A stretch of DNA of 64,000 nt from Balneolaceae bacterium (GCA_017640605.1 JAEPQH010000012.1:1-64000), one strand, 5' to 3'; counted from the first letter of the stretch, positions 6,154-56,164 are shown. Notes: a model not told the origin generated them from the letters alone. A program made the numbers and translations.

Positions 6154-6179
6154 TGATAATGTTAACGATAACATTATCA
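6154..6179. promoter_or_regulatory. LacI-family operator O1 (FISUMP gene)
   Basis: A palindrome with perfect 11-bp arms (TGATAATGTTA, then ACGA, then the reverse complement). Its core, TGTTAACGATAACA at 6160-6173, is identical to the site in front of galK at 32795. It lies 9 bases before the ATG at 6189. Confidence 0.8.
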
Positions 6180-6188
6180 CATCTCGAT

Positions 6189-18648: not shown

Positions 18649-20304
18649 TCACTCATTATTTAGAGTAGGAACCACTCTTTGATCATCGGTTTGTTTGATT
18701 TGATCTAAGATTGCTTTCATTTCAAGCACCTTCTCCGGGTATTGATCTGCAAGGTTTGTCGTTTCTCCTTTATCATTAGCAAGATTAAAGAGATAATCGG
18801 TATTCTTTTCAGGCATTGGAGTACTGATTGGATTTTGCCTTGAGTTATGCTTCATTTCAGCAAATGGCGGTGGATTAGTTGCAGGAATTAGCTTCCAATC
18901 ACCCAATCTGAATCCGTAATAATTCTCACCTGCCCCTTGTTGAAGTACATAAGGCCGGCTTATGTCCGATTGCCCTAACATCGTTTCAAGATTGTTCAAA
19001 CTATCCATATCGTCTCCTTCAGGTAATTGAACGCCGATTAATGCAGATAAGGATGCCATTAAATCAACCTGACTGAATATAGCGTTGGAAACTTTTCCTT
19101 CTGGTACTACTCCCTTCCAATTAACAATAAACGGCAAGCGAGTGCCTCCTTCATAGGCAGTATATTTGCCTCCTCTGAAGGGTCCATTTGCTTTATGTCC
19201 ATTTGCATCTTCGATTGCACCATCGCCATAACCATCGTCGTAAATAGGACCATTATCACTTGAAAAAATAATCAGTGTTTCCTCCCTAATTCCAAGTTCG
19301 TCAAGTAGAGTTAAGATTTCGCCAACTGCCCAGTCAAGTTCAACAACGTGGTCACCTCGTAAACCGGTTTGCGATTTACCAATGAATTGTTTGTTCGGTA
19401 CACGAGGTACATGATTTTGGTGCATGGGCAGAAACAGAAAAAATGGATTGTCTTTATTTTCGCGAATAAACTCACTTCCTAAATCCACAAACTTCTGAGT
19501 CATCTCTTCATCTTCCCACATGGCAGACTCTCCACCCTTTTGCCAGCCAATCCTGCTAACACCATTAACAATAGAACCAGCATGCTGTCGATCAGCCGGA
19601 TATATCAACATTTCCGGATGTGAGATTCCGGTTGGTTCGCCCTCGAAGTTTTTTTCATAGCTTACCAGAAGAGGGTCATCTTGTGGCGATAAACCTTCAA
19701 CATAATGTCCATTTAGGTACACAGTTGGAACTCTATCAACCGTTGTAGGCACAATAAAAGATTCATCGAAGCCTAATTCTAATGGTCCCGGTTTTACTTC
19801 CCCATTCCAATCAATCGTACCGTTGCCAAGCCCAAGGTGCCATTTCCCAACTAAAGAGGTTGCATAACCGGCTTTTTTGAATAAATCTGGAAGTACTGTC
19901 ATCTCGGGATCGATTAATAATGGCGCATCTCCATCTAAAATTTGTGCACGCTTATTTCTAAACGCATATTGACCGGTAAGAATCGAGTATCTGCTAGGTG
20001 TACAGGTTGAAGCCGTAGCATAGGCATCAGTCATCATCATACCTGTTTTTGCCATTTCATCTAAATGTGGCGTTGGTATTAGATCGGTCCCATAAACACC
20101 AAGATCGTTGTAAGAAACGTCATCGGCGTAGATTATGATAACATTCGGTTTTTCTGGAAGATCTGAACTGGGTTGTTTAGGAGAACACCCAACCCCGACA
20201 ATAACTACTAAAACAGTTATGAAATGAGATTTTTTGAGACGTTTGTACGACTGGTATAAATAGTTCAAAGCTACATTCATTGTTTGTTTATTCTGATAAT
20301 TCAT
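18649..20304 (-). CDS. Sulfatase lipoprotein (S1 family), Cys-type
   Basis: The 551-residue protein has a hydrophobic start ending VVIVGVGCS (lipoprotein-like), NVIIIYADDVSYND at the metal site and TCTPSRYSILTG with Cys101 for formylglycine. Long family blocks LVGKWHLGLGNG and FSSDNGPIYDDGYGDG are present. The gene begins 3 bp after the GH2 stop, so galM, GH2 and this sulfatase form an operon: sulfate removal and beta-galactoside cleavage are made together. ATG at 20280 is an alternative start. Exact sulfate position is unknown. Confidence 0.9.
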   Translation of the reverse strand: MNYQNKQTMNVALNYLYQSYKRLKKSHFITVLVVIVGVGCSPKQPSSDLPEKPNVIIIYADDVSYNDLGVYGTDLIPTPHLDEMAKTGMMMTDAYATASTCTPSRYSILTGQYAFRNKRAQILDGDAPLLIDPEMTVLPDLFKKAGYATSLVGKWHLGLGNGTIDWNGEVKPGPLELGFDESFIVPTTVDRVPTVYLNGHYVEGLSPQDDPLLVSYEKNFEGEPTGISHPEMLIYPADRQHAGSIVNGVSRIGWQKGGESAMWEDEEMTQKFVDLGSEFIRENKDNPFFLFLPMHQNHVPRVPNKQFIGKSQTGLRGDHVVELDWAVGEILTLLDELGIREETLIIFSSDNGPIYDDGYGDGAIEDANGHKANGPFRGGKYTAYEGGTRLPFIVNWKGVVPEGKVSNAIFSQVDLMASLSALIGVQLPEGDDMDSLNNLETMLGQSDISRPYVLQQGAGENYYGFRLGDWKLIPATNPPPFAEMKHNSRQNPISTPMPEKNTDYLFNLANDKGETTNLADQYPEKVLEMKAILDQIKQTDDQRVVPTLNNE

Positions 20305-20307
20305 GAT

Positions 20308-24661
<4,354 letters not shown>

Positions 24662-24951: not shown

Positions 24952-26337
24952 ATGCTCAGAGTTTTTAAAATCGTACCACTTTGCTGTATTTGCTTAATGG
25001 CACTAAATACAGGCTGTTCAACTGCTCCAAAGAATGCTGAAGAACAACCAAATATTTTACTCATTCTAGCCGACGATCTTGGGTTTAATGATTTAGGATT
25101 TCAAGGCTCAAAAGATCTAAGTACACCAAACTTAGATACATTAGCTAGAAACGGAGTAATTTTTACTGATGCCCATGTAACTGCTTCTGTATGCAGTCCC
25201 TCTCGCGCTGGGTTAATAACAGGAAAGTATCAACAATTTTTTGGGCACGAGGCAAATATTCCCCCACCACAACTTGGAACAGATACAACGCTAGTTACTA
25301 TTGCGGATGTGTTACGTGATAACGGTTATCGAACCGGAATTAACGGCAAATGGCATATTGGCTACGAATATAATTATCACCCAAATAGTCGCGGATTTGA
25401 TCATTTTTGGGGATTTCTGGGAGGTCATCGCAGCTATTTCCCTGAAAATTACCCTCCAGAAAATCATAAAGCGATATATACAAATAGAACACACACCCCA
25501 TTTACCGGAAATTATCTTACTGATACCCAAGCCGACGAAGCAGTGAAGTTTATAAAGGATTCAAATGAACCATTTTTCCTGTTCTTATCACTTGCAGCTC
25601 CGCATGCGCCCATGCATGCTTTAGAAGAGGATATGGCTAGGTTTCCGAATTCCGATCGCCCGGAATATGCAGCAATGGTGTACGCGATGGATAGAGCAGT
25701 AGGTAAGGTTGTTCAGCATTTAAAACAAACTGGTAAATTTGAGAACACACTTATTGTATTTCTGAGTGATAATGGTGGGAGCCCTGTAAACGATTCTAAT
25801 AATTCCCCTTTAAAGGGATTTAAAGGCAACAAATTTGAAGGAGGAATTCGTGTACCTTTTATAGTGCATTGGCCGAAGGTTATTGATGGTGGACAAAGTT
25901 TTGATGGACTAACCTCTTCGTTAGATTTATTTCCAACATTTCTTGATGCTGCAGGTATAAAAAAGTCTTCAGAACTAGAGTTAGATGGAACAAGCTTAAT
26001 TCCTTTTCTAACTAATGAAAAAACCGGTTCGCCGCATGATATGTTATTTTTTAGAAAGGAAATGGCTGCTGCGGTACGCCATGGAAATTGGAAGTTGATT
26101 CGATTGGATGACTACGGATATGTTCTTTACGACCTTGCAACCGATCCTTACGAAACAACCAATTTAAAAAACCGGGAACCTGAACGGTTTGAATCAATGA
26201 AAATAGCGCTCGAAAACTGGGAATCTAAAACCGTTGAGCCTTGGTGGAGTGAAAACCCAAAATGGCAAGAAGTAACCTCCGACATTCATCAAGATTTGAT
26301 GAATAATCGCCCTATCAGGCGGATTAGTCCGGATTAA
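24952..26337 (+). CDS. Sulfatase lipoprotein (S1 family), Cys-type
   Basis: The 461-residue protein has a lipoprotein signal (CLMALNTGC), NILLILADDLGFND, and VCSPSRAGLITG with Cys81 for formylglycine. GKWHIGYEYNYHPNSRGFD and FLSDNGGSPVNDS are family blocks. It is the only plus-strand gene between two minus-strand operons and has its own operator. Its stop overlaps by 4 bp the stop of the convergent SGNH gene. Confidence 0.9.
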   Translation: MLRVFKIVPLCCICLMALNTGCSTAPKNAEEQPNILLILADDLGFNDLGFQGSKDLSTPNLDTLARNGVIFTDAHVTASVCSPSRAGLITGKYQQFFGHEANIPPPQLGTDTTLVTIADVLRDNGYRTGINGKWHIGYEYNYHPNSRGFDHFWGFLGGHRSYFPENYPPENHKAIYTNRTHTPFTGNYLTDTQADEAVKFIKDSNEPFFLFLSLAAPHAPMHALEEDMARFPNSDRPEYAAMVYAMDRAVGKVVQHLKQTGKFENTLIVFLSDNGGSPVNDSNNSPLKGFKGNKFEGGIRVPFIVHWPKVIDGGQSFDGLTSSLDLFPTFLDAAGIKKSSELELDGTSLIPFLTNEKTGSPHDMLFFRKEMAAAVRHGNWKLIRLDDYGYVLYDLATDPYETTNLKNREPERFESMKIALENWESKTVEPWWSENPKWQEVTSDIHQDLMNNRPIRRISPD

Positions 26338-27095
26338 AGATCAGACCTTATGAGCTTAATTGCTGATTCAGCAACCCTGATACCCAAAATTCGGTAACCT
26401 TCAACCGTGTAGTGTAAATCATCTTGTATAAACTCATTATTGTTATTAAAACCTGTATTTAAATCATCGGTGTTTACCCAAAGTATATTTGAATATTCAT
26501 CCGCAATTTTTTCCTGAGCCTGCCTAACTTTAGTCCAGTGTGGCCACTTCTCATTATCTAAATCAAAGTCGCTTAATCGAGCAATAACCATATTTATGTT
26601 CTCTCTTTGTAGGTCGCGTTTTAGTTGATTGAATAGACCAATTACACTACTCATATACACATCCCCTTCGCTAATTCGCGCATCCCTTTCGCCATGTATC
26701 CAGACAAAAGTAACCGTTCGGATTTGTTGATTTTCAATTTCTGAGTATACTTTTTCCATTAAACTATCATACAAATCACCTCGTGCTTTCGGGACACTTC
26801 CATCGGATGAAACCCAACCTTTATACCAACGGCTAATAGGTTGAGAGCCCATTGCATCTTTCACAACTATGATATGATCGCTTCCAAATTCTGCAGCCAA
26901 AGTGGGTATTAACGTGTCTTCAACATTTAGCCGCACCATATTTGATTGCCCGGAAAGTATGAATAAGTGTTTGCCATCGTTCAAAGATTGTGCATTTAGC
27001 GGGCAAAACAGAAATAGATTCAGAATCAAATAAATGGGAAACGAATTTTGTGCACGATTGGGAGTAAAAAAATCATAAATACAACTCAGTATCAT
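26334..27095 (-). CDS. SGNH/SASA-type carbohydrate esterase (sialate O-acetylesterase-like)
   Basis: The 253-residue protein carries FILSGQSNM (block I with the nucleophile Ser) and ends with DDLHYTVEGYRILG, the Asp/His block of SGNH hydrolases; WIHGERDARISEG is the block III-like region of SASA-domain esterases. A hydrophobic segment ending FCPLNAQ suggests export. It most likely removes acetyl or similar esters from the glycan. The ATG at 27095 overlaps the stop of the sulfatase-GH16 gene (ATGA), a coupling that settles the start; earlier in-frame ATGs lie within that gene. Confidence 0.8.
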   Translation of the reverse strand: MILSCIYDFFTPNRAQNSFPIYLILNLFLFCPLNAQSLNDGKHLFILSGQSNMVRLNVEDTLIPTLAAEFGSDHIIVVKDAMGSQPISRWYKGWVSSDGSVPKARGDLYDSLMEKVYSEIENQQIRTVTFVWIHGERDARISEGDVYMSSVIGLFNQLKRDLQRENINMVIARLSDFDLDNEKWPHWTKVRQAQEKIADEYSNILWVNTDDLNTGFNNNNEFIQDDLHYTVEGYRILGIRVAESAIKLIRSDL

Positions 27096-30000
27096 TTCGT
27101 TAAAGTCATTTGTTTTGATAAAACTCCTTCGCTTGTTTGAAGCCGATAAATATAAACACCCGATGACCATTCGGACGTTTTAATACTAAAATCATGGCTA
27201 CCTGCTGGCAATAAACTTTCGACAATCGAAGCCACTTTTCTACCAAGTATATCGTACACCGAAAGCTTTACCTGAGTACTTTTCGGTAAATAAAAACTGA
27301 TACTTGTACTAGGATTAAATGGATTGGGATAATTTTGTTTTAAATCGAGTTGTGTAGGTGTGCTGGAAGTTTCTTCAGTGTTAACAACAAAATCTGTTAC
27401 ACACCTGATGCTAAGTCCCGATTTTTTGGGAACGGTATTTCTTCGAATATCAGAACGATTGAAACGAACTAGTCTGCGGTAAGCTTCTTCTTCACTCGAT
27501 TCGCTAGCCGACCAAATAGACCCAAACACAGTTTGAGAGGCAGCATTTTCAAACGCACCGTAAGCATAACGTACGCTTCCGCCTACCCAGCTGAATCCGA
27601 GCTCATTGGTGGCTCCTTCATTGGGTGAGTTCCATGCTTTGGTATTGGTTGACTTTAATTTCCCAGCCACATTGTCTGTAGCTCCTCCCCAGCCATCTCG
27701 ATCCAACTCACTATCCGGCATTCCCGCATCTAATTCAAGTGCCTTCCAATCGTCTTCATCGGGCACCCTCCATCCATCGGGACAAACACCGCGTTCATCT
27801 ATTACTACATTATAATTATATAGATAGCCGAATAGATCTATACTTAAAGTATCACCTCTAAAGACGGTATGAGCCGGCGATGTAGTTTCTGACCACTCAT
27901 TGTTAGATTCTTCGGAAGAACCAATTAAAGGAATCGGATCTCCATTTCGAAATTTTGATGTTCTAAGGTTTTCAGCCATCCAAATTCGATCATCAATTTC
28001 TACCGTATTGTAGGTATTACCGTCAATGTCGATGAGATTGGTTGGATCCGGTTCATTATCAGTCTTTTTTTTTTGAAACACCCTCACATAATCAACTTCG
28101 TAAGATAATGGAAACTCTGTATTTGATGGATTCCCTCCGTTCGCTCCAATGGCAAGATTCAATAAGATATAATGCGGTTGCCTGAATGGATTAAAGCCAT
28201 CTGCATAGGTTGCTTCTTCAATATTGATGGTATTTAATAACTCACCATTTAAAAATAATTCTATCCGATCCTCATCCCATTCCATCCTCCAGAGATGAAA
28301 TCGCTCGGTAAAATCCGGCATCCTTTCAATAAAATCAGTTAGTGGATATGCCGCACCATCCCAAAAAACTTTTCCTGTTTCTTGTCCCCTCCACGCAGCA
28401 TTTGCTAGTATGCTTGGAATGTCATTTTTGCGATAAAACTCCATCAAATCTACCTCGCCGCGATCGGGCCAAGTTCTATCGGCACCTAGGGTCCAAATTG
28501 CAGGCCAGGAACCTAAACTTGTATCAATCTTTGCCCGTACTTCTAAAATACCATACTTAAAAGTAAACTTATCTCGGGTGTTAATACTAGCAGAAGTGTA
28601 GTTAGCCTGTGCCCTGTTTTCTCGCCAATTATCACTGTCGGGATCATAATTTGGGTTTTCAACAACTTCGTGTTTACCTTCGAACTCGAGCAAGCCGTTG
28701 GCAATAGTTACATTTTGAGGCTGGTACCATTGCAATTCTTGATTTCGAACAAAGCCATTTTCAAAACTCCACCATTTTTCATCGAGAGATCCACTTGAAT
28801 TAAACTCTTGATTCCAAATTAATTCGAAACCCTCTGGAGTGTCTATTGCAGTGTAATCAGCTTTATATGGACTTGGAATATGAAATCGATCGGGATTCAG
28901 TCGGTTGTATTCAGCATCCTGTTGTAATCCTAAATATACCGGATCAATAATTTCTGATTTCCAGTTGTTTATTTGATCGATCAGATGGCCGTGATCAGTA
29001 TCATTAAATGGAATCTTACTACTATTTGCCTCACTCAGATCGTTTGCCAAATTAAATACTGAAATGATCCCATCATCATTTATCAGTTTAAGATCTCCGT
29101 TCCGAATTGTGTATATATTTTTGTCGTAATTACGCCAGAATAATGTTTTGTGGGGCGAGTTGGTATTCTTACCGGTAAGGAATGGAATTAAATTCACTCC
29201 GTCTAATGGTTTTTCCGGTTCAACGTCTGCCTCTGCCAACGCTGTTGCCATTATATCCATCGAACTTACCGGTTTATCGTAGGTAGTTCCGGCAGGTAAT
29301 ACTGCCGGCCAAGAAATCGCAAAAGGCACACGTAAACCACCTTCAAAGAAGCTAGATTTTGCACCTCGTAATGGGGTGTTATCTGAGCCATTATTACTAG
29401 CCCCCCCATTATCTGTTAAAAAGAAAATGATCGTATTTTCGGCTAATCCTTTCACTTCCAACTTATCCAGAATTGCTCCAACTCCATCATCAACAGCGCT
29501 CATCATAGCTGCATAAGTTTTTCTGGTATTATCAGTTATATCGGGAAAACGGTCTAGGTATTTTTGAGTTGCTTGTAATGGAGTATGTGGGGCATTGTAG
29601 CTCATAAAAAGAAAGAATGGATTTTCTGCTGATTGCCGGTCTATAAAATCCACACCTTCGCGCGATAAAGCATCGGTTACATACTCGTCTTCGTCGATCC
29701 ACCCATTGTTTCTCATTAACCTGGTTCGGTAACCATCCCATTGGTTGTCGGCTTCTGAATTATCGTTTAACAGCCATTCTTCAGGAAAGTAGCGATGTCC
29801 TCCTGAGAGGAAGCCAAAGAATTCATCAAATCCCTGTTGAAGCGGATACATTTTCCAATGGGCTCCTAGATGCCATTTACCCATAAAAGAACTTCGATAA
29901 TTGGCTTCAGACAGAGCTTCCGCCATATTCTGCTCAGAAAGTGGCAACCCCATTGTTGAATCGTTTGGCGCAAATAATGGATTTCGCCCGGCTCCATATC

Positions 30001-30277
30001 GATCTTGATGACGCCCCGTTAAAATTGCTGCACGGCTTGGCCCGCAAACGGGATGAGTGACATAACCCTGAGTAAATATGATTCCACGTTGTGCAATTCG
30101 ATCTATATTCGGTGTTCGGATATCACTAATACCATGAAATCCAACGTCTGCATAACCCTGATCATCGGTAAGAATTACTATTACATTAGGCTTGCGAGGC
30201 TCACTTTGTTGAAGCCCATTTGTTTCTTGAACTCCTACAAGTAGAACTGTAATAAGTACAAATAATGACTTTTGCAT
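27092..30277 (-). CDS. Sulfatase-GH16-FISUMP-T9SS multimodular secreted enzyme
   Basis: The 1061-residue protein begins with a signal peptide (LFVLITVLLVGVQETNG), then an S1 sulfatase (about 28-470, NVIVILTDDQGYAD, formylglycine Cys78 in VCGPSRAAILTG), a GH16 beta-jelly roll (about 475-740, catalytic GEVDLMEF with Glu608, Asp610 and Glu613, the E-x-D-x-x-E form), a FISUMP domain (about 750-965, with GVCPDGWRVP and SIRCV cysteines) and a T9SS type A sorting domain (YPNPFNPSTSISF). It should be secreted or surface-attached, and remove sulfate and cut the chain on the same polymer. GH16 with this motif includes laminarinases, agarases and other galactanases, so specificity is open. ATG 30277 starts the signal peptide; the frame is open upstream to 30385. 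Confidence 0.92.
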   Translation of the reverse strand: MQKSLFVLITVLLVGVQETNGLQQSEPRKPNVIVILTDDQGYADVGFHGISDIRTPNIDRIAQRGIIFTQGYVTHPVCGPSRAAILTGRHQDRYGAGRNPLFAPNDSTMGLPLSEQNMAEALSEANYRSSFMGKWHLGAHWKMYPLQQGFDEFFGFLSGGHRYFPEEWLLNDNSEADNQWDGYRTRLMRNNGWIDEDEYVTDALSREGVDFIDRQSAENPFFLFMSYNAPHTPLQATQKYLDRFPDITDNTRKTYAAMMSAVDDGVGAILDKLEVKGLAENTIIFFLTDNGGASNNGSDNTPLRGAKSSFFEGGLRVPFAISWPAVLPAGTTYDKPVSSMDIMATALAEADVEPEKPLDGVNLIPFLTGKNTNSPHKTLFWRNYDKNIYTIRNGDLKLINDDGIISVFNLANDLSEANSSKIPFNDTDHGHLIDQINNWKSEIIDPVYLGLQQDAEYNRLNPDRFHIPSPYKADYTAIDTPEGFELIWNQEFNSSGSLDEKWWSFENGFVRNQELQWYQPQNVTIANGLLEFEGKHEVVENPNYDPDSDNWRENRAQANYTSASINTRDKFTFKYGILEVRAKIDTSLGSWPAIWTLGADRTWPDRGEVDLMEFYRKNDIPSILANAAWRGQETGKVFWDGAAYPLTDFIERMPDFTERFHLWRMEWDEDRIELFLNGELLNTINIEEATYADGFNPFRQPHYILLNLAIGANGGNPSNTEFPLSYEVDYVRVFQKKKTDNEPDPTNLIDIDGNTYNTVEIDDRIWMAENLRTSKFRNGDPIPLIGSSEESNNEWSETTSPAHTVFRGDTLSIDLFGYLYNYNVVIDERGVCPDGWRVPDEDDWKALELDAGMPDSELDRDGWGGATDNVAGKLKSTNTKAWNSPNEGATNELGFSWVGGSVRYAYGAFENAASQTVFGSIWSASESSEEEAYRRLVRFNRSDIRRNTVPKKSGLSIRCVTDFVVNTEETSSTPTQLDLKQNYPNPFNPSTSISFYLPKSTQVKLSVYDILGRKVASIVESLLPAGSHDFSIKTSEWSSGVYIYRLQTSEGVLSKQMTLTK

Positions 30278-30393: not shown

Positions 30394-31449
30394 TCAGGAA
30401 ATTTTGTAATGGGTGTCAGATACATTTCTCAATAACTCGGCAGCGTATTCTGCAGTAATATCTCTTTGGGGATTGGCTAACATTTCGTAGCCAACACTAA
30501 ATTTTTTAACCGTAGCGGAACGTAACAGAGGAGGATAAAAATGCATGTGAAAATGCCATTCTTCATGATTTAAACCATCAGTAGGCGCCGGATGTAATCC
30601 AGCCGAATAAGGAAAAGAAATGTTAAATAGATTATCGTACCGAATAGTGATTTTGCGGATAATATCAGCAAACCCCTTTTTCTCTTCGTTAGACATATCT
30701 GTTAATCTTGCAAAAGGTCGTCGGCTGATTACAATCGTTTCGTATGGCCAAAATGCCCAGAATGGTACAAGCACAACAAAATGCTCATTTTCAGCTACAA
30801 TGCGCTCTTCCTGCTCAAACTCTTTACTTAGGTAATCGCTAAGTAAAGTGCGCCCATACTTCTTATAGTATGATTTTTGTTGAATCAACTCTTTGGCAGG
30901 TTCCTCCGGAATGGTGGCTTGAGCCCAAATTTGCCCATGTGGATGAGGATTACTACACCCCATTAACTCCCCTTTATTCTCGAATATCTGTACATAATTA
31001 ATCTCTTCACGTGCCCCTAATTCGTTGTATTGTTGCTCCCACACATTAACCACATTCAAAATTTCATTCACCGTCATTTCAGGAAGCGTCAAATCATGGC
31101 GGGGTGAAAAACAAATCACCTTGCAGATACCCTTTTCTGATTTACTTATTAATAAATTATCAACGTTAATGGTATTAACAGGAGTATCTAGCAACAACGC
31201 ACTAAAATCGTTTTCAAAAACAAAAGTACTTTCATACTTAGGATTTTTTTCTTTCCCTCCTGCTCTTGCATTGCCCGGACATAAATAACAGGTTTCATCA
31301 TACTGTGGCCGTTCATTCTGGGGAGTATCTTCCCTTTTCCCTTGCCATGGTCGCTGTGTGCGATGAGGTGAAACCTGAATCCATTCGTTGGTTAGTAAAT
31401 TCAATCGTCGGTGAGGTTGATTGAATAAGTTTTTTTCTTCTTGCGGCAT
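30394..31449 (-). CDS. galT: Galactose-1-phosphate uridylyltransferase
   Basis: The 351-residue class I GalT has the zinc-binding CYLCPGN, the active-site [11 protein letters not shown] (histidine nucleophile) and the C-terminal [12 protein letters not shown] block. It moves UMP from UDP-glucose to galactose-1-phosphate. It lies 66 bp after galK on the same strand. Confidence 0.96.
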
Positions 31450-31515
31450 AATTGCTGATAGATCTTATTAATGGTGATTGATATGCCTTTTGTTCGATGT
31501 TAGTTTTTGCAATAG

Positions 31516-32760
31516 TTACACCGTGATACGATTACTATCCATTTTATGAGTTCCTTTACTAATACTAACTACATGAAATTCTGGGTATGCACTCGTTTTT
31601 TTGTTGTAATACGTTTTAATACGGTCCATACAGTCTTGAATAGTATCCGAATACACGAGGTTTATTGTACATCCGCCAAAACCGCCTCCCATCATTCTGG
31701 CACCTAATATTCCATCTAGATCTTTGGTAGCATCCACCAAAATATCCAGTTCTTTGCAACTCACCTCGTAGTTCTTTTGTAATCCTTTATGCGATTGATA
31801 CATCAGGTTTCCAAATGCTTTTAAATCATGAGCAATTAGCGCATTGCAGGCATCATGCACCCTTTTATTTTCGTTGATTACATACGCACATCGCTTGAAT
31901 ACAATTTCATCCATTTCGTCTTCATGGTCATTTAACATTTCCATACTTACATCACGAAGACTTTCAACCTCGGGGTTCGTTTTTTTGATTATTTGAACCC
32001 CTGTTTCACACTGATTTCTTCTAACATTATATTCCGAGCCGGCCAAAGTTCTACGTACTTTCGTATCGCACAACAACACCTTAATGTCTTCCCAAATGAA
32101 GGGATAGTACTCGTAGGCTAAAGATCTGCAATCAAGCTTCATCACTTTACCATTCTCCCCATGTAAACTGGCGAACTGATCCATAATTCCACACTTTACA
32201 CCTACAAAGGTGTTCTCTGCTTGTTGGGAGATTTTTGCCATTTCTAGTCGGCTTAACTTATAGTTGAACAATTCATCTAACCCAAAAGCAATACCACCTT
32301 CTAGCGCTGCCGAAGATGACAAACCAGCACCAATGGGAACATCGCCACCAAACGAGCAATCAAACCCTTCAACTTTATATCCTTCTTTCTGAAGTTCTTG
32401 AACTACTCCAATTATATAATCGGCCCAATCGATACCCGTTTTACTATAATTGTCAGTTAATTCAGTTTCAAAATAACTCGGTTGCATATCGGTTGAGTGT
32501 AACCTGATTTTACCGCTAGAGTTTTTACTCATCGCCAAAACTATCGCTTTGTCAACTGATGCAGGTAAAACAAAACCCATATTATAGTCGGTATGCTCTC
32601 CAATAAGGTTTATTCTGCCAGGCGAACAAATAAGTATCGGATTTCCAGTGAAATTCGATGTATAACCTGCCATGACTTTAGATTCCTTTGTAATCATTCT
32701 TATGCGATCTATTTCAAGTTCAGTGGAGTTTTTCTGATGATTAACTAATTCAGATAACAA
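31516..32760 (-). CDS. galK: Galactokinase
   Basis: The protein (414 residues from 32760) has the galactokinase signature SPGRINLIGEHTDYN, the ATP loop DVPIGAGLSSSAAL and MGGGFGGCTINLV near the C-terminus, the three GHMP-kinase motifs. It phosphorylates galactose to galactose-1-phosphate for galT. An ATG at 32697 would give a more usual 24-residue lead before the signature and may be the true start. The gene is 35 bp from a perfect operator core. Confidence 0.95.
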   Translation of the reverse strand: MLSELVNHQKNSTELEIDRIRMITKESKVMAGYTSNFTGNPILICSPGRINLIGEHTDYNMGFVLPASVDKAIVLAMSKNSSGKIRLHSTDMQPSYFETELTDNYSKTGIDWADYIIGVVQELQKEGYKVEGFDCSFGGDVPIGAGLSSSAALEGGIAFGLDELFNYKLSRLEMAKISQQAENTFVGVKCGIMDQFASLHGENGKVMKLDCRSLAYEYYPFIWEDIKVLLCDTKVRRTLAGSEYNVRRNQCETGVQIIKKTNPEVESLRDVSMEMLNDHEDEMDEIVFKRCAYVINENKRVHDACNALIAHDLKAFGNLMYQSHKGLQKNYEVSCKELDILVDATKDLDGILGARMMGGGFGGCTINLVYSDTIQDCMDRIKTYYNKKTSAYPEFHVVSISKGTHKMDSNRITV

Positions 32761-32794
32761 TTAAGTCAGACAGTTAGAGGCTGCCTGAATTGTA

Positions 32795-32808
32795 TGTTAA
32801 CGATAACA
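32795..32808. promoter_or_regulatory. LacI-family operator O6 (galKT)
   Basis: TGTTAACGATAACA, identical to the core of O1 and the best copy of the locus consensus TGTTANCGNTAACA. It lies between galK (start 32760) and the stop of the LacI-family gene (32861). Confidence 0.8.
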
Positions 32809-32860
32809 TTAATCTAGTTAAAAAAAGGTCTTTCGCAAAACCTATTTTTAAAAAATGTTA

Positions 32861-33904
32861 TTAACTATTACTACCGCAAGATTTTCTTATCACTAAATTC
32901 GCGATGAGTTCAACATTTTCAACCGGTTCGTTTTCGTTTTCGATTGTTCGAAGCAATTTATATGCTGCTCTTTTACCTACATCATAAGCCGGTTGGTTAA
33001 TAGTGGTTAATGGAGGATCGATAATACTTGCTCTCACCTCGTTCGTAAAACCTACAATCGCTATGTCTTCAGGAATAGATAGGCCATATTCTTTGATTGC
33101 TTCGATTGCTCCAAGCGCAGAGGGATCGTTTACTGTGGCTACAGCATCCGGCCGATCTTGTTTTGGAAGTGCCAATAATTTATTCATTGCCTCCTTCCCG
33201 TCAATCTCGGTTAACCCTGTTTCAACTATTCGATCTTCGTTTATTTCTATTCCTGCATTGGTTAAAGCTTCCCGAAAACCGGCAAGTCGCTCTCGTCCAA
33301 TTGTTACTTCAGGTGGGCCACTTAAATAAGCAATTTTCTTGTAACCGTTTTTTATCAAATGCTCGGTAATCTGGCGTGATGCTACCCTATCGTTTACTCC
33401 GATACAACTAATACCTAAATTATAAATACAGCGATCGAAAAACACGATCTTAATACCTGTATTTTTTAGGTTTTCGAAAAATGAAAAATCAGTAGATTTA
33501 ATACTGGTTGATACCAAAATTCCATCAACTCGCTTAGCCCGTAATGCTTCGATGGATCGCTTTTCTTTTTCAAAATCTTCCGAAGAATTTGTTAGAAATA
33601 TCTGATAATTAGCCTCACTGGATATTTCATCGATACCACGTACCACCTCAGGAAAAAAGGCATGCCCGATTTCGGGTATCACAACACCAATAGTATATGT
33701 TCGATTGGAAACTAAACTTTTAGCTACATGATTTGGGGTGTAGCCCATTTTTGTAGCAACTTCTTGAATGCGTTTTTTAGTTTCGGGATTAACATTTGGA
33801 CGATCATTCAATGCCCGAGATACTGTCATAGTAGACAAGCCCAAAGCAGCTGCAACTTCCTTTAGAGTTACGATTCCATTCGTCTTTTTTCCGTCTTTGG
33901 TCAT
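32861..33904 (-). CDS. LacI/GalR-family transcriptional regulator
   Basis: The 347-residue protein has the LacI HTH at about 13-60 (VTLKEVAAALGLSTMTVSRAL, then a hinge helix ending NHVAKSL) and a periplasmic-binding-protein-like sensor domain (IGVVIPEIGHAFFPEV, VDGILVSTS, AIVGFTNE). It is the only regulator of this type in the window and sits among galK, the FGE and the symporter. The seven TGTTANCGNTAACA sites are its natural targets, with galactose or an oligosaccharide of the polymer as likely inducer. The link from protein to sites is inferred from location. Confidence 0.93.
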   Translation of the reverse strand: MTKDGKKTNGIVTLKEVAAALGLSTMTVSRALNDRPNVNPETKKRIQEVATKMGYTPNHVAKSLVSNRTYTIGVVIPEIGHAFFPEVVRGIDEISSEANYQIFLTNSSEDFEKEKRSIEALRAKRVDGILVSTSIKSTDFSFFENLKNTGIKIVFFDRCIYNLGISCIGVNDRVASRQITEHLIKNGYKKIAYLSGPPEVTIGRERLAGFREALTNAGIEINEDRIVETGLTEIDGKEAMNKLLALPKQDRPDAVATVNDPSALGAIEAIKEYGLSIPEDIAIVGFTNEVRASIIDPPLTTINQPAYDVGKRAAYKLLRTIENENEPVENVELIANLVIRKSCGSNS

Positions 33905-34039: not shown

Positions 34040-35029
34040 TTATGGAATTGCTTTAACACCTCGAAACCCTATATGAAACATATTATTGTCGGGTGGGGTA
34101 TTACTTCGTGCAGAAACTCTGTAACCGTGGCAATACGAGGAATGGCACATAAAAGACCCACCACGTAACACTTTTTCACTCTGTTTTGTTATAGTAAAAG
34201 GCTGATCTCTTTCAGAATAAGATCTATACCAGCTGGAAGTCCATTCCCATACATTTCCGCCCATATCGGTTAGCCCAAGATCATTTACTCCAAACTTACC
34301 TACCGGTGCAGTTGTCAAATATCCATCATTAACAAGATTTGATGTCGGGAATGAGCCATCCCAGGTATTCGTCATAAATTCGCCATCAACTTTTAAAGTA
34401 TTACCCCAAGCATAAATGTCGTTTCGGTTAGAGAGCCCCCTAGCCGCATGTTCCCATTCGATTTCTGTAGGCAACCTTTTTCCCACCCATTCTAAATATC
34501 GAGTAACATCTTTATAGGTTAACAGTGTCACAGGATGATTATCCGGTACTTTGCCAACTTCTTTTCCCATAGGATATTCCCAGTTTATATCTGGTTTTAT
34601 TATCCAATTCGCTTGTTCAAAATCGAATACAATACCATCTCCTATGCTATCTGAAAATGTTATGTAACCTGTAGCCTCAACAAATTTTCGAAATTCTCCC
34701 ACCGTAACAGGATGAGTATCCATATAAAATGGCTGTACTTCAGTAGTAAAAATTGGTTGTTCATTGGCCATACCCGACTCAGAACCAATAGTAGTTTCCC
34801 CTCCGGGCACATAAACCATCCCATCTGGTATTGATTTTGGTTTACCTGCTAATGTCAGAGGAGCATTGATTGCCTCTATGGCATCAATCTTTTCAGCATT
34901 TGATAAAGAGTTTCTGTCAAGATTCGAGCAATTAGCTGTTACTTCGTCAATAGTTTGTTTCTCTTTACAGGAAAAACTGAATACGATTAATCCTAAAATA
35001 AATATTCTAAGTACAGAGTGATTTAACAT
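34040..35029 (-). CDS. Formylglycine-generating enzyme, lipoprotein type
   Basis: The 329-residue protein has a lipoprotein signal (LIVFSFSC) and a full FGE-sulfatase domain: DGMVYVPGGETTIGS at the start, LPTEIEWEHAARG, GGNVWEWTSSWY and GGSFMCHSSYCHGYR. Cys295 and Cys300 correspond to the catalytic pair Cys336/Cys341 of human FGE, and SNTPPDNNMFHIGFR also matches. Most exported proteins of this domain family lack those cysteines, so this one is probably a real sulfatase-maturing enzyme for the six Cys-type sulfatases nearby. The lipoprotein signal would place it outside the cytoplasmic membrane. Confidence 0.88.
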   Translation of the reverse strand: MLNHSVLRIFILGLIVFSFSCKEKQTIDEVTANCSNLDRNSLSNAEKIDAIEAINAPLTLAGKPKSIPDGMVYVPGGETTIGSESGMANEQPIFTTEVQPFYMDTHPVTVGEFRKFVEATGYITFSDSIGDGIVFDFEQANWIIKPDINWEYPMGKEVGKVPDNHPVTLLTYKDVTRYLEWVGKRLPTEIEWEHAARGLSNRNDIYAWGNTLKVDGEFMTNTWDGSFPTSNLVNDGYLTTAPVGKFGVNDLGLTDMGGNVWEWTSSWYRSYSERDQPFTITKQSEKVLRGGSFMCHSSYCHGYRVSARSNTPPDNNMFHIGFRGVKAIP

Positions 35030-35074: not shown

Positions 35075-36706
35075 TTACCAAAATACCGCATATAAAACAG
35101 CAGTGATAATTAATACTGCATAAGCACCTAAATTAAAACCTGCACTTGTTTTAAATGTATCAGCCGTTAGATGGATAGCTTTCTCGTCATCATCATTTGG
35201 ATTGGTAGTTAAACTAACCCCAGCAATTATTACAATGGTAATAATTAGCGTGTAAAACATCTGATCCATAAAAGGTAAGCCAACCGCAGGAATTTTAAGT
35301 AATAATGCTACTGCAATGGATGAAAGTACTCCAATAATAGCGCCTTTCGTAGTAGTTTTTTTCCAAAATAACCCCATAATAAATACGGCTAATATACCCG
35401 GACTTACTAGACCTGTATATTCTTGAATATATTGAAATACTTGACCAACATTATTCAATTGCGGAGCTATCATCACTGCGATAACGAGTGCTACGGCAGC
35501 AGAAATTCGCCCAACATTTACCGTTCTTTTATCGGTAGCATTTTTGTTGAAATAGGGTTTATAAATATCCATCGTAAATATGGTTGCAATAGAGTTTAGC
35601 ATAGACGCTAGGGAAGACACTATTGCAGCGGCTAGTGCTGCAACTACCAGACCTTTAAAGCCAGGAGTAACAAATACACTTATTAACCATGGATACGCAT
35701 TATCATTATCCAGAGTGCCATTAGGTTTTGTAAATGCATCAACAACTCCGGCAATTTCTGCTGTGCCGGCAGGTTGTGAAAACAAGACATAAGCGATAAT
35801 ACCCGGAATTACTACAATAAATGGGATGATCAATTTTAAGAAAGCAGCAAATACTATCCCTTTTTGAGATTCTTCTAACGATTTTGCAGCAAGTGTACGT
35901 TGAATAATGTATTGATTGAATCCCCAATAATACAGATTAGCCACCCACATCCCACCAATTAGAACAGCTATTCCGGGTAAATTTTGAAATTCAGGATTGG
36001 ATCGATCTAATATCATGTGAAATTTATCACCCGCCACATCATAAATATGTGTTAATCCATTGAAAATACCACCATCAGGGGTTACATGATTAAGCGCGAT
36101 AATTGTTGTTACTAATCCACCTAACACCAACAACGCTACCTGTACCACATCTGTCCATGCAACCGCCGATAAGCCCCCATACAGCGAATATGCTGCAGCA
36201 ATAAGTGCTAATCCAAGCATCGCTATAAATAACAAACTTCCATCTCCTGAACCCCAGATGGTATCAAGAGCTTTTGCACCTAAGAACATAACCGTAGTTA
36301 GATTCACAAATACAAAAAGTGCGATCCAGAAAATAGCCAAAATCGTTTTTAAGGTGGTATTAAACCGATGCTCAATAAATTCTGGAATAGTATATAACTT
36401 CTTCTCTATAAATATAGGTAACAGATATTTACCAACAATGAGCAACGTTATAGCAGCCATCCACTCGTAAGAAGCAATGGCTAAACCAACTGCAAAACCC
36501 GAACCCGACATACCAATTATTTGCTCTGCCGATATGTTTGCTGCAATTAGTGATGCACCAATTGCCCACCACGGCAACGATTTACCGGCTAAAAAGTAAT
36601 CTTCAGCATTTTTTTGATGCCCTTCTTTATCTCGTGATACCCACAAGCCAATACTCACTATCATGAGTACATATAATGTAAAAACAATAATATCAATTAA
36701 TTCCAT
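35075..36706 (-). CDS. Sodium/galactose symporter (SSS family, vSGLT-like)
   Basis: The 543-residue membrane protein has about 14 hydrophobic helices and resembles Vibrio vSGLT over its whole length from memory of that sequence: DYFLAGKSLPWWAIGASLIAANISAEQ, LYYWGFNQYIIQRTLAAKS, FVNLT and IVSSLASMLNS. It takes up galactose with sodium across the inner membrane, linking periplasmic GH2 to cytosolic GalK. The FGE gene follows 45 bp downstream. It diverges from galE across a shared operator. Confidence 0.94.
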   Translation of the reverse strand: MELIDIIVFTLYVLMIVSIGLWVSRDKEGHQKNAEDYFLAGKSLPWWAIGASLIAANISAEQIIGMSGSGFAVGLAIASYEWMAAITLLIVGKYLLPIFIEKKLYTIPEFIEHRFNTTLKTILAIFWIALFVFVNLTTVMFLGAKALDTIWGSGDGSLLFIAMLGLALIAAAYSLYGGLSAVAWTDVVQVALLVLGGLVTTIIALNHVTPDGGIFNGLTHIYDVAGDKFHMILDRSNPEFQNLPGIAVLIGGMWVANLYYWGFNQYIIQRTLAAKSLEESQKGIVFAAFLKLIIPFIVVIPGIIAYVLFSQPAGTAEIAGVVDAFTKPNGTLDNDNAYPWLISVFVTPGFKGLVVAALAAAIVSSLASMLNSIATIFTMDIYKPYFNKNATDKRTVNVGRISAAVALVIAVMIAPQLNNVGQVFQYIQEYTGLVSPGILAVFIMGLFWKKTTTKGAIIGVLSSIAVALLLKIPAVGLPFMDQMFYTLIITIVIIAGVSLTTNPNDDDEKAIHLTADTFKTSAGFNLGAYAVLIITAVLYAVFW

Positions 36707-39472: not shown

Positions 39473-41197
39473 ATGAATCAACTAGTAGGTTCAACCACTT
39501 TCAAAAGTAATACAATACTTTACCTTACACTTTTATGTTTGCTTAGTTTTTTAACCTTCTGTTCTACCGATGCGATTATTACTGATCAAGAAATTGAAGC
39601 TACAGTATACTATTTCAATTCTGAAACCGGAAACGACCAAAATTCCGGGGTTTCAATCGACTCGCCTTGGAAATCACTCTCGAAAATAGATTCATTAGAT
39701 TTGCAACCTGGTGATAGAATTTTGCTGGCAAAAGGACAAGAGTTTCAGGATCCCATCATCATAAAAAATGTTGCCGGTGCTGATGATGCACCAATTCTCA
39801 TATCAACCTATGATGACAGAACTAATGATAGAAGTGATTTTGCATTTATCAAAACGCAAGGACATTTAAACGCTGTATTAGTACAAAATTCAAGCTTTGT
39901 TAAAATTGAAAATCTTTCAATTTCTGCAGGGCCAATACCTGGTGAAGTAATTACTGAGCGCGGTAATAATATTATGCGTATTGGCGTAAAAATTGATGTT
40001 TCTGAATTCGGTGTGTTTGAAAATATCAAACTCAAAAATCTTGAGATCAAAGATATATTTTACGAAAACCCTGGAATTGATAGAGGCTCTAGCGAAGTAA
40101 AAACGGCGAACGGTACGCAGAGTTATGGATGGGGAATTCGTGTGTTTAATGAACGTTCTGGCTCCCTGCTACGAAATATTGTTATAGATTCAGTTCATGT
40201 TGAGAACGTATCCCATACAGGTATCAAATTTACATCTCCAAAATATGGCGATGATTTCGGCATTAAACAGATACAAGTATCAAATAGCCGCGTTTATAAA
40301 ACTGGTGGGCCTGGAATCCAAATGTCTGGTGTTTATGATGGGCATATTTTTGGTAACAAAGTTGATCGTTCTGGTAGCTTTGATGACTCTAGGAAATGGG
40401 GACGAGGCAGTGGGCTTTGGACTTGGAGCACCTCTAACGTATTAATCGAACACAACAGCTTCACCAATGCAAATGGGCCGGGCGACTCAGCCGGTGCACA
40501 TATCGATTTTAATTGCAGTAATATCATCTTACAATATAATTTCAGTGCCAATAATGCAGGTGGGTTTTGTGAAATTCTCGGGAATAATTATAACTGCTCG
40601 TATCGTTATAACATTAGTGTAAACGACGGCCATCGTGTAAAAGGTGAAAATGGTGCTTTCCAAGAAGGCAAAGTGTTTTGGCTAAGCGGATACAATGGAA
40701 ATAAGCCCCGTTCAGGTCCATTTAATAGCTATTTTTATAATAATACTATCTATGTAACAGAATCTATTCAAGCTAAAATTGCCATTGATCGAATGTCGGA
40801 TGGCATACTTATTTCTAATAATATTTTCCATATCGAGGGTGAAGCCAAATCCGTTTTAGGAGATCAGTATAATCCTGAAACCGAAGGTGAAGTGAATACT
40901 TTGAACACCGTGTTTAAAAACAATTTATTTCTTCACAATGAAAGCTGGCCTTCCGATTATCCTTGGCAAGATGACGCCCCAATGTTTGGAAATGCAGCTT
41001 TTTTAAATTTAGGGGGCTTTTCGATTGAAGATTACACACCAAAAAACAGAGATTTAATTCAAAACAAAGGGGTTTTAATAAACACAATACCTAGTGATGA
41101 TTTTGGTCTATATATCGGACTTGAAGTAAAGCAGGATATACTTGGAAACCCAATTGTTGGATTACCTGATTTAGGTGCCATTGAAATACAGCAGTAA
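39473..41197 (+). CDS. Exported right-handed parallel beta-helix protein
   Basis: The 574-residue protein has a hydrophobic start (TLLCLLSFLTFCS), possibly a lipoprotein signal although Phe before Cys is unusual. An entry strand ATVYYFNSETGNDQNSGVS, typical of beta-helix polysaccharide enzymes, is followed by repeated turns (LRNIVIDSVHVENVSHTGIKF, IFGNKVDRSG, IEHNSF, ILQYNFSANNAGGF). The fold is that of pectin-lyase-like enzymes, which include lyases and several glycoside hydrolases. No family-specific catalytic signature was recognised. It ends the galE operon and is a candidate for an unassigned galactan-active enzyme. Confidence 0.72.
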   Translation: MNQLVGSTTFKSNTILYLTLLCLLSFLTFCSTDAIITDQEIEATVYYFNSETGNDQNSGVSIDSPWKSLSKIDSLDLQPGDRILLAKGQEFQDPIIIKNVAGADDAPILISTYDDRTNDRSDFAFIKTQGHLNAVLVQNSSFVKIENLSISAGPIPGEVITERGNNIMRIGVKIDVSEFGVFENIKLKNLEIKDIFYENPGIDRGSSEVKTANGTQSYGWGIRVFNERSGSLLRNIVIDSVHVENVSHTGIKFTSPKYGDDFGIKQIQVSNSRVYKTGGPGIQMSGVYDGHIFGNKVDRSGSFDDSRKWGRGSGLWTWSTSNVLIEHNSFTNANGPGDSAGAHIDFNCSNIILQYNFSANNAGGFCEILGNNYNCSYRYNISVNDGHRVKGENGAFQEGKVFWLSGYNGNKPRSGPFNSYFYNNTIYVTESIQAKIAIDRMSDGILISNNIFHIEGEAKSVLGDQYNPETEGEVNTLNTVFKNNLFLHNESWPSDYPWQDDAPMFGNAAFLNLGGFSIEDYTPKNRDLIQNKGVLINTIPSDDFGLYIGLEVKQDILGNPIVGLPDLGAIEIQQ

Positions 41198-41311: not shown

Positions 41312-43261
41312 TCAGCAATGCTCACAACAGGCATGTTCTGCTTTAAGATTTGAGTCATCATTTTTAGAGGCACTAAACATTGAACGAAAAACTTCCCCAC
41401 CACCGAATTTATTCTGAATTCTGATTGCGTTTCCGATGGCTAGTAAAGCCACTCCAACATCCGCGAAAATGGCTTCCCACATGGATGCAAGTCCATAAGC
41501 GGCCATTGCCATCACCAACACTTTTATGCCTAGTGAAAACACGATGTTTTGCCACACCACCCGATGCGTAAATCGCGCAATATTGATGGCTAATGGTATT
41601 TTCGAAGGCTGATCAGTTTGAATAACCACATCGGCGGTTTCAATGGTAGCATCCGAGCCGATTCCGCCCATCGCTATGCCCACATCCGATAGAGCGATTA
41701 CGGGCGCATCATTTACTCCATCTCCCACAAATCCAATCACTTTCCCTTCGCCCTTGGCTTCGTCGACAAATCTGTATTTTTCGTCGGGTAAAAGACCTCC
41801 ATAGGCTTCATCCAATCCTAACTCATTCCCGATATAATGTACAACAGCTTCATTGTCTCCCGAAAGCATAACCAAACGTTTCACGCCTACTTCACGCAGT
41901 TGATGAATCGCAGATTTACTGTCTTCTTTAATTTTATCAGCGATTACAATGGTGCCCACATGCGCGTTGTTGATTGCAACGTGAACCAATGTTTCTGTGC
42001 TAGATTGCTGAAATGGCTGCATAGAAACCATGTGTTCGTTTAATAACTCCTGATTTCCAACTAACACCCATTGATCACGCACTTTTGCTTTTAGTCCTTT
42101 CCCCGAAATCTCTTCCTGATAATGAGTTTCCATCAGTTCGCTTCCGTTAGCGTACTCTATTATGGCTTTTCCAATCGGATGGGAAGATTGTGTTTCCAGT
42201 GACGCTGCAAAAGCAAGTATTTCGTTATCTGATAATCCATTATGGGAAAGCACTTGCCGAACTTCAAAAGAACCTTCGGTCAGGGTACCGGTTTTATCCA
42301 TAAACAGCGTTTCCATTTTTCTAAGCTGATCCAGATAATCGGAGCCTTTGAATAAGATTCCGTTTTGCGATGCCGCACCGATCCCGCCAAAGTAACCGAG
42401 TGGAATCGAAATCACCAGTCCGCACGGACATGAAACAACCAAAAATATCAATGCTTTATAGAACCACTCTTGAAATTGGTATGCATCCACAAAAAAGTAT
42501 GGTAAAAAGGTGAGCGCCACGGCTAACCACACCACAATGGGCGTGTACACTTTTGCGAATTTGGTCATGAAGCGCTGAGTAGGTGCCTTTCGTTGTGTCG
42601 CTTCTTGAACTAATGCCAAAATATTGGCGAGCTTGGAATCTTTAAAACTACTTCTCACTTCTACCTTAACCGGAGCCGATTCGTTGATGGATCCTGCCCA
42701 AACTTCTCCGCCTTTTTTAAGTTGAACAGGTTTCGACTCTCCCGTTAGCGCCGCCGCATTTATAAATGCCTGATCACTCAGCAAAATACCATCCAGCGGA
42801 ATTTTCTCACCGGGTTTTATGCGAATGATTTCCCCAATATTTACTTCTGATGGATGTAGTTCAACCAACGAGCCTTTCCGTTCAACCACTGCAATATCCG
42901 GTTGCTGATCAAGCAACTTTTTGATCGAATTTCGTGCTTTATGAACAGCTCCATGTTGTGCGTACTCACCTATCATATAGAACAGCATCACGGCCACACC
43001 TTCTGCATATTCACCAAGTATAAAGGCGCCGATCGTTGCAATACCCATCAAAAAAAACTCACTGAATACCGTGCCGTTTTTAAGAGAGTTGAATGCTTTC
43101 AACCAAACAGGTCCGCCAACGGCTAGATACGAAATCCCATAAAGTGTGAGATACACCCAAGCGTTACCCTCGAATGGGAAAACAAATTGCACCAACAATG
43201 CGGCAGATAAAAATAAGGCGCTGATTGCGGCTTCTTTGTATGTTGTAAGAAATGCTATCAT
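41312..43261 (-). CDS. Heavy-metal P1B-type ATPase (Zn/Cd/Pb class)
   Basis: The 649-residue protein has the CPCGLVISIP membrane motif, phosphorylation site DKTGTLTEG and hinge GDGVNDAPVIALSDVGIAMG of P1B ATPases. CPC with this length fits the ZntA/CadA group. There is no N-terminal HMA domain; instead a Cys/His tail HACCEHC closes the protein and may hold metal. It would export zinc, cadmium or lead. The metal-sensing regulator is encoded just upstream. Confidence 0.9.
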   Translation of the reverse strand: MIAFLTTYKEAAISALFLSAALLVQFVFPFEGNAWVYLTLYGISYLAVGGPVWLKAFNSLKNGTVFSEFFLMGIATIGAFILGEYAEGVAVMLFYMIGEYAQHGAVHKARNSIKKLLDQQPDIAVVERKGSLVELHPSEVNIGEIIRIKPGEKIPLDGILLSDQAFINAAALTGESKPVQLKKGGEVWAGSINESAPVKVEVRSSFKDSKLANILALVQEATQRKAPTQRFMTKFAKVYTPIVVWLAVALTFLPYFFVDAYQFQEWFYKALIFLVVSCPCGLVISIPLGYFGGIGAASQNGILFKGSDYLDQLRKMETLFMDKTGTLTEGSFEVRQVLSHNGLSDNEILAFAASLETQSSHPIGKAIIEYANGSELMETHYQEEISGKGLKAKVRDQWVLVGNQELLNEHMVSMQPFQQSSTETLVHVAINNAHVGTIVIADKIKEDSKSAIHQLREVGVKRLVMLSGDNEAVVHYIGNELGLDEAYGGLLPDEKYRFVDEAKGEGKVIGFVGDGVNDAPVIALSDVGIAMGGIGSDATIETADVVIQTDQPSKIPLAINIARFTHRVVWQNIVFSLGIKVLVMAMAAYGLASMWEAIFADVGVALLAIGNAIRIQNKFGGGEVFRSMFSASKNDDSNLKAEHACCEHC

Positions 43262-43340
43262 GATGAATTACTTTGCCTAATGATAGCAGTAATGCACATT
43301 AACCTATTGCAGATTTATGTAATTCTCGTGCAAAATTATG

Positions 43341-43907
43341 TCAGATTTGATCGATGGAAATGCGTTTGTTCTCTTTGATTTCTTTGAAATGAGAGGGTGA
43401 TAATCCGGTTTCTGTTTTAAACTGACGTGAGAAATGCTGCTGGCTACTATACCCGAGTTCATAAGCAATCTCAGTAAGGGTATGCTCGCCGTATACAATC
43501 AGTTCCTTGGCACGCTCTACTTTTTGCAGGATGAAATAGCGTTCGATGGACTTCCCTTCAACATTGGAAAAGAGTCGGCTTAAATGCTGATACTCTTTAT
43601 TCAGATTTTGCGAGAGATAATCAGAAAGTTTTCCCGTTAGTTCTTTATTGGTTCTCACCAATTGAATGATCAACTGCTTAATCTGTTCAACGGTTTTACT
43701 GCCTTGATCATTAATGATTTCAAACCCATTTTTTTGCACCACATTCATTAAGCGCTGATATTCCAAATCTGAGATAGATTCAGAAAGTGTGAGTTCGCCA
43801 AGTTCGATATGCTTCACGTTGAACTCAGCTTTGGCCAATTTTTCTTCCAGCACTTCGGCACAGTGACTGCATACCATATTTTTTATATGAAAATGATTTT
43901 GTGCCAT
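43341..43907 (-). CDS. AraC-family regulator with N-terminal HMA-like metal-binding segment
   Basis: The 188-residue protein begins MAQNHFHIKNMVCSHCAEVLEEKL, an HMA-type segment with a Cys-x-x-Cys pair, and ends in an AraC HTH (about 95-185, LTEIAYELGYSSQQHFSRQFKTETGLSP). ATG 43907 starts the HMA segment; the frame runs on to 44048 but that stretch has no known domain. It lies 79 bp upstream of the P-type ATPase on the same strand, so it is probably the metal-responsive activator of the pump, in place of the usual MerR or ArsR regulator. Confidence 0.82.
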   Translation of the reverse strand: MAQNHFHIKNMVCSHCAEVLEEKLAKAEFNVKHIELGELTLSESISDLEYQRLMNVVQKNGFEIINDQGSKTVEQIKQLIIQLVRTNKELTGKLSDYLSQNLNKEYQHLSRLFSNVEGKSIERYFILQKVERAKELIVYGEHTLTEIAYELGYSSQQHFSRQFKTETGLSPSHFKEIKENKRISIDQI

Positions 43908-44122
43908 ACGTTTATCGACAATGCTTAACCTGGTTTGGATTCCTTCCTCAAGAATATCGTAAAACTTTTGAGACTGATTGTCATCAGACTTTAAGTTAAG
44001 AGGAAAGATTATAGGATTTTTGTCAAAGAAACTCATCCTGTAGCACAAAGCATTCCATAGTGCGAGTTAACAATACCGGATCTTTCAGAATAGTGCAGTA
44101 GATTTTACGAAGTTTACTTCCG

Positions 44123-46813: not shown

Positions 46814-46873
46814 GTCCGGGAGAAGTATGTGGGAAGTGCAAAAACACTTCCCAGATTACTGTTTATTAATTGT

Positions 46874-48643: not shown

Positions 48644-48677
48644 GTTTATCTCCGGCTTAGTTAGTATTCAATAATTC

Positions 48678-50084: not shown

Positions 50085-50129
50085 GCTTCTATGATTTGGA
50101 TACTTAAAGTTCATCTTGATAATTCTTTT

Positions 50130-51290: not shown

Positions 51291-51292
51291 GA

Positions 51293-52759: not shown

Positions 52760-52771
52760 AGTACACATATT

Positions 52772-56113: not shown

Positions 56114-56164
56114 AATAAATTCGTTTCGATGTTAACTCCAACTTGTACTATTACCCGCATCGAT

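Follow-up and report, generated by a model that had tools for sequence, protein, structure and literature searches.

This study concerns a gene of a marine-type Balneolaceae bacterium (GCA_017640605.1) that encodes a sulfatase and a glycoside hydrolase (GH) of family GH16 on one protein chain, and that lies within a stretch of 64,000 nucleotides (JAEPQH010000012.1:1-64000), hereafter called the window. The minus-strand open reading frame (ORF) at 27092-30277 is open, and from the ATG at 30277 it encodes 1,061 amino acids (aa) with a hydrophobic signal sequence at the start; a start at the ATG further upstream, at 30385, would lengthen the product to 1,097 aa, with the additional 36 aa ahead of the signal sequence. 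Pfam placed four domains on the chain, namely Sulfatase at 66-386 (PF00884, E 3e-61), GH16 at 595-748 (E 5e-13), Fib_succ_major (FISUMP) at 795-996 (E 2e-39) and Por_Secre_tail at 1019-1091 (E 7e-10); these coordinates are in the 1,097-aa numbering, from which 36 is subtracted to obtain the 1,061-aa numbering. NCBIfam concurs on the FISUMP domain and on the type A domain of the type IX secretion system (T9SS). From N- to C-terminus the order is signal peptide, S1 sulfatase, GH16, FISUMP and T9SS type A sorting domain. An initial annotation of this DNA had described the same four modules on one chain with both sets of catalytic residues (Cys78 and Glu608/Asp610/Glu613) intact, and both motifs were found at those positions.

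27092-30277, minus strand: whole gene, sulfatase-GH16-FISUMP-T9SS protein of 1,061 aa (ORF, Pfam, NCBIfam)
30215-30277, minus strand: putative signal peptide, about aa 1-21 (MQKSLFVLITVLLVGVQETNG), read by eye from the sequence, cleavage site approximate
28916-30190, minus strand: S1 sulfatase module, S1_19-like, about aa 30-454 (Pfam; best solved matches are S1_19 carrageenan sulfatases)
30044-30046, minus strand: Cys78 in CGPSR, predicted formylglycine precursor (sequence; aligns with the catalytic Cys of S1_19 structures)
28838-28915, minus strand: junction, about aa 455-480, with the sulfatase C-terminus PDRF (aa 463-466) and a short linker conserved in the fusions (alignment)
28061-28837, minus strand: GH16 module, about aa 481-739, with the GH16_3-type Trp motif W591/W595/W603 (Pfam, structure matches, alignment)
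28439-28456, minus strand: GH16 catalytic motif E608-V-D610-L-M-E613 (EVDLME; sequence, aligned with other members)
27398-28003, minus strand: FISUMP domain, aa 759-960 (Pfam, NCBIfam)
27113-27331, minus strand: T9SS type A C-terminal sorting domain, aa 983-1055 (YPNPFNP...KQMTLTK; Pfam, NCBIfam; SprA in the genome)

The sulfatase-GH16 core is present in six genomes belonging to three families of one order. In the 92 family and 245 class genomes searched, five (G044, G071, G098, G102 and G111) besides the present one carry it at approximately 60% identity. It lies in a single frame in G044 (768 aa), G098 (805 aa), G102 (765 aa) and G111 (784 aa), while in G071 two contig ends interrupt it: the sulfatase breaks off at the end of one contig, and the remainder of the GH16 starts another. 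The junction point is identical in all five. The nearest stand-alone sulfatases (51-54% identity; G293 and G379) end at PDRFxR, whereas the fusions run past this point through the short conserved linker into PEG(Y/F)EL(V/I)W of the GH16. In the sulfatase tree the six fused forms make up one clade (support 97/89), as they do in the GH16 tree (support 100/99), and the internal branching order of this clade agrees between the two trees. Since both modules give a single clade with the same branching order, one fusion event is indicated; on these comparisons, the two enzymes were joined head to tail once, long ago, and have been kept in six genomes.

The same evidence bears on whether the join could be an artefact of assembly or gene calling, a worry raised in the initial annotation. 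Five independent assemblies show the two modules joined at an identical position, and the trees are congruent, which leaves this reading next to no probability; for the sulfatase-GH16 join an assembly artefact is ruled out, and this fusion is taken as genuine. A phylum sample of 394 genomes added no further full-length case, and none beyond the order. A scan of genome contigs, a pattern scan that reaches close relatives only, likewise gave sulfatase-only or GH16-only matches and no more sulfatase-GH16 ORFs among the 80 loci listed. Since neither search added a fusion, the idea that it is widespread in bacteria was rejected. Searching other genomes for the four-module architecture, as had been proposed, thus recovered the two-module core in five of them, and the four-module form in this genome only among the family, class and phylum-sample genomes. 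As judged from these sets, the conserved unit is the two-module core, and the four-module form is an elaboration of a single genome.

The sulfatase module carries the C/S-x-P-x-R motif of S1 enzymes as CGPSR at 78, together with the other usual S1 segments: DD at 38-39, GKWHLG from 133, HTPL from 231, TDNGG from 288 and RGAKSS from 304. Its best solved sequence matches are all S1_19 (6bia, 6prm, 6b0j and 9hh3, approximately 320-336 bits), followed by S1_16 at 222 bits, and the first 15 matches in the fold comparison are all S1_19 carrageenan 4S-sulfatases. The best matches by both sequence and fold are PsS1_19A/B and ZgCgsA, with 35-37% identity in the fold alignment; these differ in being carrageenan sulfatases without a joined GH16. 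By its nearest solved relatives, from which the subfamily label is taken, the module appears nearest to the S1_19 (galactose-4-sulfate) enzymes.

With regard to the GH16 module, the PF00722 match is accompanied by the E-x-D-x-x-E motif. The closest solved relatives are GH16_3 mucin O-glycanases (6t2n, BACCAC_02680) and laminarinases, with which it shares the three-Trp motif of GH16_3 finger 3 (W591, W595 and W603), a motif associated with a beta-1,3 linkage from subsite -2 to subsite -1; at subsite -1, a 4-O-sulfate would be directed into the cleft of the GH16 (PMC7419316). These relatives differ in having no fused sulfatase and in acting on other substrates. A carrageenase of the GH16_13 or GH16_17 type was ruled out by the three-Trp motif and by the sequence matches, with E 9e-5 for a kappa-carrageenase versus 1.5e-41 for a GH16_3 enzyme. 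Taken together, the sulfatase and the GH16 suggest a beta-1,3-linked backbone carrying galactose-4-sulfate as substrate. That the GH16 family includes enzymes able to cleave the backbone of a beta-1,3-galactan is known from FvEn3GAL, a fungal endo-beta-1,3-galactanase (PMC4052742), compared here by its described activity. Stand-alone relatives of the GH16 module are approximately 49-57% identical to it, and no characterisation of them was found. Two of these, from the same family, are adjoined by GH30, GH2 and galactonate-pathway genes (G012) and by GH43 enzymes (G016); galactans are therefore again indicated.

The surroundings of the fusion gene are those of a galactose-utilising locus:

18649-24661, minus strand: S1_15-type sulfatase, GH2 beta-galactosidase and GalM (sequence matches)
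26334-27170, minus strand: ORF for a SASA carbohydrate esterase; it overlaps the fusion gene at the latter's end (ORF, domain match)
30394-33904, minus strand: GalT, GalK and LacI regulator, upstream of the fusion gene (domain matches)
34040-35029, minus strand: formylglycine-generating enzyme (FGE) with a lipoprotein-type N-terminus and the catalytic pair Cys295/Cys300 (MCHSSYC; sequence)
35075-36706, minus strand: sodium:solute symporter (domain match)

Further genes of the locus encode GalE, SusCD, two PF11790 enzymes and one further protein; from their solved relatives we take the former to be GH128-type and the latter GH136-like. GalT, GalK and the LacI regulator are also grouped with the fusion and the FGE in a relative (L024). 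The genome has six sulfatases, every one of them inside the window and with the Cys-type motif. Their nearest solved relatives are of the S1_19, S1_16, S1_15, S1_20 and iduronate-2-sulfatase types, the labels S1_15, S1_16 and S1_19 being those of structure titles, and the sulfatase at 24952-26337 was placed by its approximately 40% identity to that of the fusion. The S1_20 label draws in part on PMC10154612. No anhydrogalactosidase (GH127/GH129) was seen among the annotated window genes. With six sulfatases and galactose catabolism, the locus points to a sulfated beta-galactan.

A different polymer, a sulfated glucan or gluco-galactan, would follow if the GH16 were a laminarinase-type beta-1,3-glucanase. 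Its nearest solved relatives, GH16_3 laminarinases and mucin O-glycanases, and the two PF11790 enzymes would be in keeping with this. The complete galactose pathway with a LacZ-type GH2, the galactose-type subfamilies of the sulfatases and the occurrence of stand-alone GH16 relatives in galactan loci argue against it, and we regard it as distinctly unlikely.

The GH136-like protein (39473-41197) has a weak similarity to lacto-N-biosidases and adjoins a sulfatase; a relative in G293 (L126:12388-14025, 48%) neighbours the closest of the S1_19-like stand-alone sulfatases, together with a sulfatase of the S1_15 type. The window also holds a second utilisation locus (44123-61556). In it a sigma factor and FecR accompany SusCD, a pair of SusE/F-like proteins, one of which has a T9SS tail, two proteins whose C-terminal domains are of the alpha-galactosidase type, one of these also T9SS-tailed, and a glycosidase of the six-hairpin kind that resembles rhamnosidases or trehalases. 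Between the two loci, at 41312-44048, lie an AraC-type regulator and a heavy-metal P-type ATPase whose C-terminus is rich in Cys (CCEHC); that the latter is linked to copper supply for the FGE is a guess.

The FGE gene accompanies the fusion closely. In all five relatives an FGE, 55-60% identical to that of 34040-35029, follows directly downstream of the fusion, with a gap of a few bases or a short overlap. The genome (99.8% complete) yielded no anaerobic sulfatase-maturating enzyme (anSME), and among its PF03781 proteins the catalytic Cys pair is kept by the locus FGE only, the others being one lipoprotein without the pair and one apparently EgtB-like protein. Read by eye, the FGE and its five counterparts begin with a hydrophobic stretch followed by a lipobox-like Cys, in SFSC here and in LSGC, MTGC, ITGC or FSGC in the relatives. 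Since the only maturase candidate found is a lipoprotein-type FGE, periplasmic maturation is suggested. Eukaryotes make formylglycine in the endoplasmic reticulum, and the locus suggests that it may be made in a comparable way in the periplasm here. The earlier point that a T9SS-exported sulfatase must mature before it passes the outer membrane accordingly holds in principle, with the periplasm as the compartment indicated by the sole candidate. Prokaryotic FGE has been described as cytosolic (PMC4505483), a location from which the locus FGE departs by its predicted lipoprotein-type N-terminus. Two further observations concern this enzyme family. In the phylum sample, 34 of 35 FGE homologues (window 34040-35029, L164-L192, L142-L144, L146 and L147) have the catalytic Cys pair and, at variance with the cytosolic enzyme described in print, most start with lipoprotein-type signals, both features occurring together in 25 by a strict rule and in more by eye. 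In G044 a transposase gene (L022:4046-4795) lies just past the fusion-FGE pair, which is a possible route for the movement of the pair.

Four of the relatives are full-length, and these, like the half of G071 that includes the GH16, terminate just after the GH16, without the FISUMP-T9SS tail. In the present genome the tail is 53% identical to a stand-alone protein of the same locus:

6126-7238, plus strand: stand-alone FISUMP-T9SS protein (sequence comparison)

At the DNA level the two share only patches of 66-69% identity, which rules out a recent duplication; because the DNA similarity is so weak, they are to be seen as old copies. A FISUMP-T9SS pair is also found on a PF11790 enzyme in G071 (L024:5959-8136), adjoining another stand-alone copy. 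The tail is probably a cassette added to enzymes of this locus, later than the core; that the ancestor of the remaining five lost it would be a less simple explanation. SprA, the T9SS translocon, is encoded in all six genomes, so that the tail would be usable in each. With a Sec-type signal (by eye), a type A C-terminal domain and SprA in the genome, the present protein has the features of T9SS type A cargo. T9SS export, assumed in the initial annotation, is thus predicted for this tailed protein, but it does not belong to the core design, the tail having been seen in one of the six members. The predicted structure of the FISUMP domain has a pLDDT of 30. Elsewhere, a sulfatase with a T9SS tail and no GH was seen (L078).

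Sulfatase-GH fusions had been called uncommon. This is fair, but the present one is not unique, as planctomycete genes with GH and sulfatase domains are known (PMC4807772) and the GH78-S1_25 protein P36 of Formosa agariphila (ulvan; PDB 6hr5), likewise from marine Bacteroidota, carries an S1 sulfatase and a GH on one chain, as does the present protein, with its conserved join. Fusions of a sulfatase with a BNR/sialidase-type domain (L048:1478-4963, Verrucomicrobiales) and with a 3-keto-disaccharide hydrolase domain (L099:2007-4178, Roseibacillus) were also observed. The modules of P36 have been demonstrated to act in consecutive steps (PMC8511951, PMC8360166). P36 differs in joining an exo-rhamnosidase to S1_25 for ulvan, whereas here an endo-type GH16 is joined to an S1_19-like sulfatase in a galactose locus. 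The other close parallel, S1_19A and GH16B of Pseudoalteromonas PS47, acts on carrageenan: GH16B is inactive unless the S1_19-type galactose-4-sulfatase has acted first (PMC6923384, PMC13168452). These two are separate proteins, and GH16B is a GH16_13-type carrageenase. The literature searched, with subscription papers outside its coverage, yielded no case of a GH16_3-like enzyme fused to an S1_19-like sulfatase. By that search the pairing is new; sulfatase-GH fusion as such is already known.

We consider that the protein may be a secreted chain with two enzymes, encoded in a locus for the use of sulfated galactan, which desulfates and then cuts, a reading that has about an even chance of being correct. 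The chain would be moved into the periplasm by Sec, where the lipoprotein FGE of the locus would turn Cys78 into formylglycine while the chain is still unfolded, and T9SS would then take the tailed protein over the outer membrane. At the cell surface the sulfatase would strip sulfate, most likely from galactose O4, and the GH16 would cleave the backbone at the desulfated site; the products would be taken up via the SusCD of the locus and finished by the GH2 and the Leloir pathway. A tailless enzyme, as in the relatives, would act in the periplasm.

Several points weigh against this picture. Many of the nearest solved GH16s are laminarinases, and the two PF11790 enzymes match a family known for beta-1,3-glucanases. 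The tail is missing in five of six members, which means that surface work is no general property. The structure model is too weak to tell whether the active sites face each other, and if the sulfatase is exo-acting, cutting may come first. The initial annotation had suggested that desulfation must precede GH16 cutting; direct precedents exist elsewhere, but the order is not established for this protein, because the close S1_19 relatives include both endo- and exo-acting enzymes (PMC6923384). In the reverse order, the GH16 would cut and an exo-sulfatase would then clear 4-sulfate from the new ends for the GH2 beta-galactosidase. PsS1_19B, among the closest solved relatives, is strictly exo-acting (PMC6923384), a hand alignment matches its aromatic-shelf Phe103 with the Phe in the conserved NPLFAP segment of the present sulfatase, and the P36 fusion acts at the non-reducing end. 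PsS1_19A, on the other hand, is equally close, endo-acting and unlocks a GH16; moreover, one conserved Phe is not decisive for the mode, the shelf residues Y455 and Y458 falling outside the alignment. We find the reverse order unlikely.

The fusion might also bring no cooperation on one stretch of chain, serving only to co-locate and co-dose two activities that work on separate sites. Many modular carbohydrate-active enzymes are simple tethers. The two-module model, computed from an alignment of sequences from the window and related loci with two rows for the GH16 part, has a pLDDT of 62.7, low in the GH16 part, and inter-module geometry is not derivable from it. Against this, the join and the short linker have been kept despite divergence to approximately 60% identity, and both modules indicate galactose-type substrates. 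On balance such mere co-location seems rather unlikely, although somewhat less so than the reverse order.

Beyond the desulfate-then-cut reading, we tentatively put forward a fuller picture, which we hold to be possible but short of an even chance: a conserved enzyme that would both desulfate and cut sulfated beta-1,3-galactan, with a co-inherited, membrane-anchored maturase that would activate it between Sec and T9SS, and a mobile FISUMP-T9SS cassette that would switch enzymes of the locus from periplasm to surface. The locus questions the common view of a cytosolic bacterial FGE, its only maturase candidate being a predicted exported lipoprotein. If the desulfate-then-cut reading is true, the two-protein relay of desulfation and cutting in carrageenan use would here be built into one chain, and the six natural members permit a direct test of whether fusion brings cooperation.

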